Source of the DNA: Fimbriimonas ginsengisoli Gsoil 348
Lineage (GTDB): Bacteria; Armatimonadota; Fimbriimonadia; Fimbriimonadales; Fimbriimonadaceae
Direction: 5' to 3'
DNA: 64,000 bases
NCBI GenBank assembly: GCA_945881865.1
Contig: CAMCVK010000001.1
Span: 248,001-312,000 of the forward strand
The notes under the pieces are model-generated. The model ran no database searches. It was not told the origin of the DNA and saw only the letters and a program-made list of their open reading frames with translations. The translations under genes and the position numbers were made by a program. Position 1 is the first letter of the stretch; every line of letters begins with the position of its first letter. Shown here piece after piece: positions 43,426 to 51,071 of the stretch.

Positions 43426-43953
43426 ATGATGTGGCGGTATCCTCGCACCCAAATGGAGCCGGTACGAGCGCGGAAGCATCGTCTGCCGGAATCTGCATAT
43501 CGCGGGAAGAAGTGCGTCGCGATCACAGCGGTTGAAATTCAGCGGCGACCGATCCTCTCAAATGACCAGATTCACAACGCGGTACGAGACTGCCTCTCTT
43601 CCGCATGCTCCAGATTCAACTGCCTTGTGCCGATTTACTGCATTATGCCGGACCATTTGCACGTTCTCATCTTAGGTGAAGCGGAAGCCTCGGAACCGAA
43701 GAAAGCAATCGAGCGCTTCAAGTGGGAAATTGGAAGTTGGTTTGTAAACCATCAGAATCCAGCTAGATTTCAAAAGGATTTTTACGACCATATTGTGAGG
43801 CGGTCCGAGGGTTGGGAGAGTCAGGCGCGCTACATCGCCCTCAATCCGGTCCGCCGCCAACTTGTGATGGACATCGTCAGTTGGCCATATACGGGTTCGA
43901 TTGGATTCGATTTAGAGGAGTTTTTGCTGGAATCGTGGTGGGACGGCAGGTGA
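43426..43953 (+). CDS. REP-associated tyrosine transposase (RAYT, Y1/HUH family)
   Basis: 175 aa. HUH motif: MPDHLHVLIL (His-Leu-His, about 66-75). Nucleophile Tyr in ARYIALNPVRR (the YIxxNPVR block of RAYTs). RAYTs are domesticated IS200/IS605-like single-strand nucleases that recognise flanking REP hairpins. The frame is intact, lies between A-B repeat clusters on both sides, and has no left/right IS ends, as expected for a RAYT rather than a mobile IS200. Confidence 0.92.
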   Translation: MMWRYPRTQMEPVRARKHRLPESAYRGKKCVAITAVEIQRRPILSNDQIHNAVRDCLSSACSRFNCLVPIYCIMPDHLHVLILGEAEASEPKKAIERFKWEIGSWFVNHQNPARFQKDFYDHIVRRSEGWESQARYIALNPVRRQLVMDIVSWPYTGSIGFDLEEFLLESWWDGR

Positions 43954-49659: not shown

Positions 49660-50550
49660 ATGCTTTTTGTTGCCGACCAGCCTGAACGGCTGGATAAATT
49701 TTTGGCCCGGATGTTGCCGGAACACAGCCGCAGCAAACTCGTTCGCGAGATTGAATCCGGAAACGTTTTGGTAAACGGAGTGATGGGCAAGCCGAGCCTC
49801 ATGCTGGCCAGTGGCACCGAAGTGACCCTGGAACAACCAAGCGAGGCCACCGCCCACGACCTGACCCCCGCCGCGATTCCGCTCGACATCGTCTACGAAG
49901 ACGATTGGATGCTGGTCGTGAACAAACCGCGTGGCTTGGCGACACACCCCGCGCTCTCGTTGAAGGAGCCGTCGTTGGTGAACGCTTTGCTCGCCCGTAA
50001 CACGCCGCTGAGCGAGGCGGGCGGAGCATTTCGGCCGGGCATCGTGCATCGGCTGGATAAGGAAACGACGGGTTTACTTGTGGTGGCGAAAACCGATGCC
50101 GCCCACGTTGTCCTTGCCCGCCAGATTGAGGCGCGCACCGCTGGGCGTCGCTACGTGGCCGTGGTCGAGGGCTGGTTCCCGCAAGCCGCGGCCCGCATCG
50201 AAGCGCCTCTGGCGCGATCTCCAAAGAACCGATTGTTGATGACCGTCGAACCAGCCGGCAAGCCGGCCGTTACCCACATTCGGCGGGTTGGGCGAGTTGA
50301 CGCCGGTTGTCTTCTCGAGTGCCGTTTGGAAACCGGCCGTACCCACCAGATTCGCGTTCACCTTCAGGCAGTCGGGCACCCGGTGGTTGGGGACGTGCTC
50401 TATGGGCGAGGCATCGGCCCGATGCAGTTGCATGCGTGGTCGCTCGCTCTGGAGCACCCCAGCACCGGCGAACGCATGACGTTCACCCGTTCGGTTCCGG
50501 ACGACTTCGTCAACCTCGAATCCCTTTGGGACGAAGTCGCCGCTTTCTGA
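49660..50550 (+). CDS. RluA-family 23S rRNA pseudouridine synthase
   Basis: 296 aa. N-terminal S4 RNA-binding domain (ERLDKFLARMLPEHSRSKLV), then the catalytic motif HRLDKETTGLLVVAKT (Asp about 131), and ECRLETGRTHQIRVHLQAVGHPVVGD, a signature of RluA/RluD. It isomerises uridines in 23S rRNA. The S4 domain suggests RluD type. TAAAAC lies 6 bases before ATG. The stop lies in the left inverted repeat of the DUF559 element. Confidence 0.92.
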   Translation: MLFVADQPERLDKFLARMLPEHSRSKLVREIESGNVLVNGVMGKPSLMLASGTEVTLEQPSEATAHDLTPAAIPLDIVYEDDWMLVVNKPRGLATHPALSLKEPSLVNALLARNTPLSEAGGAFRPGIVHRLDKETTGLLVVAKTDAAHVVLARQIEARTAGRRYVAVVEGWFPQAAARIEAPLARSPKNRLLMTVEPAGKPAVTHIRRVGRVDAGCLLECRLETGRTHQIRVHLQAVGHPVVGDVLYGRGIGPMQLHAWSLALEHPSTGERMTFTRSVPDDFVNLESLWDEVAAF

Positions 50551-50603
50551 ACCCCTCTCCCTTCTGAGGGAGAGGGGCAGGGGTGAGTGTTTAGACTTTT
50601 AAT

Positions 50604-50630
50604 GGTTAGTATTATTATATAATACTAACC
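50604..50630 (+). promoter_or_regulatory. TATAAT promoter inside a 12-base palindrome
   Basis: GGTTAGTATTAT (50604-50615) and ATAATACTAACC (50619-50630) pair perfectly around TAT. TATAAT (50618-50623) is inside, and ATG follows directly at 50631, so the mRNA would have at most a base or so before ATG. The arrangement suits autorepression. Confidence 0.65.
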
Positions 50631-51008
50631 ATGCCAAGAAACTCTGACCCTCACGCGCGCGAAGCAGCCCGCGAGGCACGAAAGAATCCATCGGTCGCAG
50701 AGAAGATAATGTGGTCGTGCCTTCGCGGCGAACGTACCGGGTTCAAGTTTCGCCGCGAGCATCCAATAGAAACGTTTCGGGTCGATTTCTACTGCGCGGA
50801 GGCCTTGCTGGCGATCGAGTTTGATGGCGAGCAGCATGTGCCGGAAGAGGACGCTAGGCGGGATGCCCGCCTAGCCGGGTTTGGAATTCTGGTCCTCCGT
50901 TTTCCCAACCGCGAATTCTTTGGCCTGGAACCGGCGGCGGAGTTCCGGGACGAGATTGCGGAAATCATTAGACTTTGTGAGGAACGCTCCGGACGTAAAG
51001 CGTTCTGA
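50631..51008 (+). CDS. DUF559 nuclease-like protein
   Basis: 125 aa. The Vsr-like/PD-(D/E)xK core is visible: FKFRREHPIETFRVDFYC, then LLAIEFDGEQHV (D...E-F-D). The N-terminus (NPSVAEKIMWSCLRGERTG) is typical of DUF559. The family is related to very-short-patch repair nucleases, but its role is not established. The gene stands alone between inverted repeats and is strongly divergent in context from its housekeeping neighbours. Confidence 0.85.
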   Translation: MPRNSDPHAREAAREARKNPSVAEKIMWSCLRGERTGFKFRREHPIETFRVDFYCAEALLAIEFDGEQHVPEEDARRDARLAGFGILVLRFPNREFFGLEPAAEFRDEIAEIIRLCEERSGRKAF

Positions 51009-51071
51009 ACGACGAGCTTCCCGGAGCCCTCACCCCTGCGCCTCTCCCTCAGAAGGGTGAGGGGTTCAGAA

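Follow-up and report, generated by a model that had tools for sequence, protein, structure and literature searches.

A solo DUF559 nuclease gene between inverted BoxC/PIT-type repeats in Fimbriimonas ginsengisoli: a probable compact repeat-nuclease element

Background

What is a free-standing nuclease gene doing between two inverted copies of a hairpin-forming repeat? The question is raised by a locus of Fimbriimonas ginsengisoli Gsoil 348 (GenBank assembly GCA_945881865.1, a draft of 26 contigs), in a stretch of 64,000 nucleotides (contig CAMCVK010000001.1, positions 248,001 to 312,000) that we refer to as the window. Here a solo DUF559 gene, framed by such repeats, is located between the genes of an RluD-type pseudouridine synthase and a DeoC/LacD-type aldolase.

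E. coli has been known since the 1990s to contain BoxC/PIT/TM repeats. They consist of three blocks (CCCTCNCCC..GGGNGAGGG..GGGNGAGGG), are intergenic and often occur as inverted pairs. They have been identified in more than 260 genomes, with neither a function nor a mobility gene found; members of the class from E. coli form a triplex in vitro, and neither terminator nor promoter activity was found for them (PMC4666352). Among DUF559 proteins, E. coli YcjD had been placed among the PD-(D/E)XK nucleases by 2005 (PMC1189080), and VsrA of Caulobacter has been found responsible for an SOS response that occurs when a cytosine methylase is missing (PMC12907096), which indicates that members of the family can act on DNA. 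In the open-licence literature we found no report linking DUF559 to repeats or inverted repeats.

Results and Discussion

The DUF559 unit in the window

The unit comprises the following features (positions are those of the window):

50545 to 50587, + strand: left terminal repeat, 43 nt, with a TTCTGAA end, 95% complementary to the right copy
50546: start of the common element end TCTGAA; other genomic copies begin at the same TCTGAA
50552 to 50561: C/T arm of the left repeat
50562 to 50567: loop of the left repeat
50568 to 50577: G/A arm of the left repeat
50580 to 50587: mirror third block of the left repeat, GGGGTGAG
50602 to 50632, + strand: perfect palindrome (14+3+14) between the left repeat and the start codon, with promoter-like hexamers, private to the window copy
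50631 to 51008, + strand: solo nuclease gene of the DUF559 family (PF04480), 125 aa, predicted Vsr-like fold
51028 to 51036: third block of the right repeat
51029 to 51071, - strand: right terminal repeat, inverted, with a TTCAGAA end
51040 to 51048: G/A arm of the right repeat (as complement)
51049 to 51054: loop of the right repeat
51055 to 51064: C/T arm of the right repeat (as complement)

The window protein matches the Pfam profile of DUF559 with E=1.2e-22 and 80.3 bits (curated cut-off 20.6); its only other domain match is a weak one to MTES_1575, and the profile search detected no transposase domain in it. The ORF stands free between rluD and deoC, the stop codon of rluD (TGA, 50548-50550) falls within the left repeat, and in the relatives examined the two neighbours are not adjacent, i.e. 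the gene order is not conserved. The inverted-flank score across the DUF559 gene is 38; when the same geometry was applied to 1453 random positions of the window, the score never exceeded 21, a value reached at the RAYT gene. No target-site duplication is discernible by eye at the window unit or at the gene-less inverted mini-pairs of the same genome. As a DNA hairpin, the left repeat is predicted to have a folding energy of -14 kcal/mol (z -3.4), while the right one by itself is weaker (z -1.6).

The initial annotation, made from the letters alone, had described a DUF559 nuclease-like gene between inverted repeats matching at 37 of 39 bases, and both statements are correct, the match being slightly longer than claimed. 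It had also placed the promoter in a 12-base palindrome. The palindrome is real and longer, with perfect arms of 14 nt, a loop of 3 nt and a z-score of -6.9; it reaches into the ATG by two bases and includes the hexamers TTTAGA-17-TATTAT, which are consensus matches only. It is not conserved, however: its counterpart is absent from the related DUF559 loci, and the autorepression that had been proposed on its account is not supported. A long AT-rich palindrome, CACCTCATTCTGACAAAAGATTAAATCTTGTCAGAATGAGGTG, also directly precedes E. coli ycjD (in locus L163, where the ycjD match is at 1501); its placement is similar to that of the window palindrome, and its sequence is unrelated.

Architecture of the terminal repeats

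The blocks of the window repeat follow each other in the order CCCCTCTCCC - loop TTCTGA - GGGAGAGGGG - CA - GGGGTGAG, i.e. a C/T arm, the complementary G/A arm, and a G-rich tail mirroring the latter, with a T opposite an A. Both copies have the C/T arm turned outward and the mirror third block toward the gene. This is the three-block organization of the BoxC/PIT/TM repeats, and judging from the sequence together with the class-wide mirror and covariation tests given below, the window repeats are of the BoxC/PIT 'intrastrand triplex' type. They do not match the strict E. coli consensus CCCTCNCCCN3-6GGGNGAGGGN3GGGNGAGGG, as they have a second linker of 4 nt instead of 3 and one deviating block each, which places them in the BoxC class and outside its E. 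coli subfamily.

The third block was analyzed over the repeats of DUF559 loci. Among repeats with an asymmetric G/A arm, a full mirror image of that arm is present on the gene side in 71 of 103 cases, compared to 2 of 97 on the outer side, and the mirror prevails over the direct repeat by 62:15 (p 6e-8). Where the stem has a C-G pair the third block has G (106:7), and where it has a T-A pair the third block has A (71:3); these counts are pooled over related copies that are not independent events, so that p values are not to be taken at face value. Both concordant types are present within 16 loci, and in L141 and L276 the two ends of the same locus differ from each other in the concerted manner. 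The sequence of the stem constrains that of the third block. The covariation fits G.GC and A.AT triplets, and a triplex in the cell is possible, although covariation does not prove it.

A further form of the end repeat, GCCACCTTCCC..GGGAAGG or CTCACCGACCTCT..AGAGGT with longer arms, has been identified in genomes G003 and G010, which have 8-11 DUF559 genes (loci L232, L235, L241, L243 and L245-L247).

Copies in the same genome

The covariance model of the window repeat identifies 44 copies in its own genome (E <= 0.01). Most of them share the TCTGAA end, and several form gene-less inverted pairs of roughly 110-180 nt. The genome encodes five solo DUF559 loci, all five with inverted pairs of a hairpin plus tail, and the repeats fall into three types: that of the window, that of L001 and L005, and that of L002 and L003, the type following the lineage of the DUF559 gene. 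L001 and L005 are the best paralogous pair, with units 75% identical at two sites and similarity that fades past the repeats; the gene in L005 is decayed and its repeats are intact. In a set of 16 genomes chosen for the presence of a DUF559 locus the alphaproteobacterial repeat pattern occurs in up to 132 copies per genome, and the reversed pattern used as a control in none. Gene-less copies, single or as inverted pairs, are dispersed in genomes that hold a DUF559 unit. The initial annotation had likened the unit to a REP-type element carrying its own nuclease, analogous to a RAYT locus, and had allowed that the repeat might be absent elsewhere or lie next to no other DUF559 gene. The gene-less copies, the related repeats that flank other DUF559 genes and the recurrence of the pairing in other phyla bear out the analogy, with the distinctions discussed below.

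Pairing of gene and repeats across genomes

Three quarters (75%) of 75 DUF559 loci from named genomes have an inverted-flank score of at least 20, compared to 0.9% of 431 control ORFs taken from the same loci. Most of these loci are alphaproteobacterial, others coming from Fimbriimonadia, Planctomycetes, Acidobacteria, Prevotellaceae, Peregrinibacteria and Lentisphaerae. Since the 75 loci were the best matches to the query, 115 evenly drawn genomes of Alphaproteobacteria were also tested, in which 23 of 30 DUF559 loci and none of 68 control ORFs score at least 16 (both thresholds, 16 and 20, were set by eye and then applied equally to genes and controls). In the same sample the three-block repeat is present at 48 of 60 DUF559 flanks, versus 1 of 57 places located 700 nt further out. 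Among 41 order-level relatives of the window genome, with up to 11 DUF559 genes per genome, 38 of 66 loci score at least 20. Many of the surveyed loci come from draft genomes, and in L131 the pairing is present in a complete one.

The three-block repeat was found at 0 of 58 flanks of GIY-YIG genes in the same 115 genomes, at 0 of 42 flanks of Y1 genes in the order, and on both sides of 0 of 27 deoC loci. Among Alphaproteobacteria of at least 2.2 Mb, DUF559 is present in 13 of 15 genomes with the repeat pattern and in 9 of 47 without it (Fisher p 4e-6, for genomes that are related by descent and with the centre genome and two others left out). Within genomes, more closely related DUF559 proteins have more closely related repeats (48 pairs, Spearman 0.68, permutation p 0.0015). 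Some loci recur among the pairs, and the within-genome permutation corrects only partly for this lack of independence. The pairing of gene and repeat is real, widespread and specific to solo DUF559 among the families compared, which suggests that the widespread BoxC repeats have in the DUF559 family the partner that had long been missing.

Solo DUF559 genes without recognizable repeats also exist, e.g. in L030 and L037, and in two genomes of the same order, G029 and G035, neither of which has a DUF559 gene, the model of the window repeat finds 47 and 22 matches. There the repeats may have persisted after loss of the gene, or something else may act on them. A DUF559 locus from the window's own genus (L257, genome G016) carries the alphaproteobacterial form of the repeat (GGGGGACC..GGTGGAGGGG), by horizontal transfer or contamination.

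Full and empty sites

In 13 of the Sphingomonas genomes read, an element of ~450 nt is located between pntAa and pntAb. The same site is empty, with 19-21 nt, in L216, L221 and L223, and is occupied by a lone hairpin, TCCTCCCCGTTCCGGGGAGGA, in L215, with a similar one in L225. From its sequence the lone hairpin looks like a junction of the outer arms of the left and right repeats and resembles a deletion scar. Besides, the element of about 0.75 kb in L002 is missing at the corresponding site in two relatives. Full and empty sites of the DUF559 element thus exist, gain and loss being indistinguishable without a tree.

Pairwise comparisons in two sets of loci revealed no case in which near-identical DUF559 copies occupy different sites and both ends can be defined. 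L031 and L051, considered as a recent transposition, are 98% identical, but one of them runs off its contig, and the pairs L040/L041 and L045/L046 are most simply explained as orthologous loci. In two Sphingomonas genomes a DUF559 element occupies the same site (L299 and L303); the outer flanks are conserved, and the genes can no longer be aligned as DNA, a pattern of either fast divergence or replacement.

The enzyme and its relatives

The AlphaFold2 model of the window protein (mean pLDDT 87) predicts a Vsr-like fold of the PD-(D/E)XK superfamily. Its nearest solved folds are NGO0050 of Neisseria gonorrhoeae (PDB 3hrl, Z 12.6), which is also the closest solved structure with E 1.4e-30, the catalytic domain of I-Bth0305I, a homing endonuclease (Z 10.8), and Vsr (Z 9.1). 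The residues invariant in an alignment of 18 sequences include E24, D52, E63, D65, H69 and D74. With Vsr and I-Bth0305I the protein shares the fold and a set of invariant acidic and His residues, but its gene is a solo ORF with hairpin repeats on its flanks. NGO0050 has been annotated only as putative and endonuclease-like; its gene, in L171, is likewise flanked left and right by BoxC-like repeats (score 16). A role as a defence system and a phage origin were both rejected, the former on no more than a weak partial PADLOC hit and the latter on only two weak tblastn hits among 50,697 phage records.

In E. coli, ycjD sits between sapF and fabI beside BoxC copies, on one side only; by sequence comparison, copy no. 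9 of K-12 listed in PMC4666352 is the repeat beside this DUF559 gene. The sapF-ycjD-fabI query is held at >=80% by 3362 of 5426 E. coli genomes. The sampled strains without ycjD have an efflux operon at that place, which indicates that one allele has been exchanged for another and that the site is not cleanly empty (PMC12817139), so that the locus was ruled out as an empty-site test.

A break-and-repair model and its alternatives

We regard it as probable that the unit, 0.53 kb in length, represents a compact repeat-nuclease element, in which a solo DUF559 gene lies between inverted BoxC/PIT-type repeats and would spread by break and repair. The nuclease would recognize and nick or cut the cognate hairpin or triplex in single-stranded or extruded DNA, e.g. 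at a replication fork. Repair of the break could then copy the repeats, or the repeat, gene and repeat together, to new places, and could also delete the repeats or the whole unit, leaving a hairpin scar. The repair is assumed to be carried out by the host, because we know of no strand-transfer chemistry for the Vsr-like fold alone.

DUF559 would be to BoxC-type repeats what RAYT is to GTAG-REPs, but by homing-like break and repair and not by Y1 chemistry. With the RAYT/REPtron the unit shares one small enzyme gene within inverted hairpin repeats, many gene-less copies, repeat types specific to the enzyme lineage, and the absence of any visible target-site duplication. On the other hand, the RAYT enzyme is a Y1/HUH transposase and not a Vsr-fold nuclease, and its repeats are GTAG-tagged, whereas those of the window have the three-block C/T-G/A-G/A organization, with ends TCTGAA/TTCAGA and no GTAG tag. 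BoxC/PIT/TM repeats differ in that they have been known so far as gene-less, while the window copies bound a unit that contains a nuclease gene. Unlike a classical insertion sequence, the unit has no DDE, serine or tyrosine transposase and no visible target-site duplication.

An enzyme that serves the host is an unlikely alternative. DUF559 would then serve in repair or quality control, as a nuclease by which BoxC-type hairpins or triplexes are removed or resolved; its place beside them would reflect action in cis or regulation by them, and the unit would not be selfish. This would be in line with the fold of Vsr, a repair nickase, with the SOS induction by Caulobacter VsrA upon loss of the cytosine methylase, and with the presence of ycjD in most genomes of E. 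coli phylogroups A/B1/C (PMC12817139), as also seen by us. Nevertheless, the inverted terminal placement, up to 11 paralogues per genome, the decayed gene of L005 between intact repeats and the insertion within the pnt operon look like a mobile element.

Less probable still is that the repeats are mobilized by another enzyme, a Y1 transposase of the RAYT/TIRYT type or an IS, with DUF559 as a passenger caught between two copies. Y1 genes are present in 34 of the 41 relatives, the window RAYT (43426-43953) lies only 7 kb from the DUF559 gene, and GGGGTGAG fits the GGGGWSAS motif shared by the terminal repeats of some Y1 genes (Di Nocera 2013, PMC3733652). However, the window RAYT has a classical GTAG-REP of its own (GTGTAGCCCCAGCCTCTGTGGCTGGGC), which bears no relation to the repeats of DUF559. 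Y1/RAYT genes, which served as a positive control of the method, have inverted repeats of a different sequence in 19 of 30 cases, and in the 41 genomes the three-block repeat is found at 0 of 60 of their flanks. Nor would one expect a passenger to belong to the same family in one phylum after another or to covary with the repeat type.

That the repeats enclose a short gene as insulators or as terminators of transcription in both directions, as their intergenic position and hairpin-forming capacity might suggest and as the initial annotation had considered for ordinary terminators, is very improbable: neither window repeat has a T-run or a terminator-like site, the E. coli members of the class showed neither terminator nor promoter activity (PMC4666352), and the repeats are absent from control genes. 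Chance pairing or an artefact of the draft assembly can practically be dismissed, given the recurrence in independent genomes, the complete one of L131 included, and a window score far above the random maximum.

If the break-and-repair reading is true, nuclease-driven break and repair would be a distinct mode of bacterial DNA mobility, and DUF559, a large family 'of unknown function', would gain a likely role. A specific nuclease partner would make the origin and spread of BoxC repeats directly testable, E. coli K-12 with its ycjD included. The pairing of enzyme and repeat might also be a general rule that extends beyond RAYTs. We propose, tentatively and with less confidence than for the unit itself, that classes of hairpin repeats each have their own nuclease (Y1 RAYT for GTAG-REPs, as known, DUF559 for BoxC and solo GIY-YIG for CGTC-REPs) and may spread by break and repair without a transposase.

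Repeats at solo GIY-YIG genes

CGTC-REPs have been reported to be without a dedicated transposase (PMC3733652), and in the open-licence literature we found no paper that pairs GIY-YIG with extragenic palindromic repeats. Inverted repeats frame 18 of 29 loci of solo GIY-YIG genes in Alphaproteobacteria (L360-L389). A REP type tagged with CGTC is present at 17 of 58 of their flanks, versus 0 of 54 places further out, an example being CGTCATCCCGACGCAGGTCGGGATCCA in L374.
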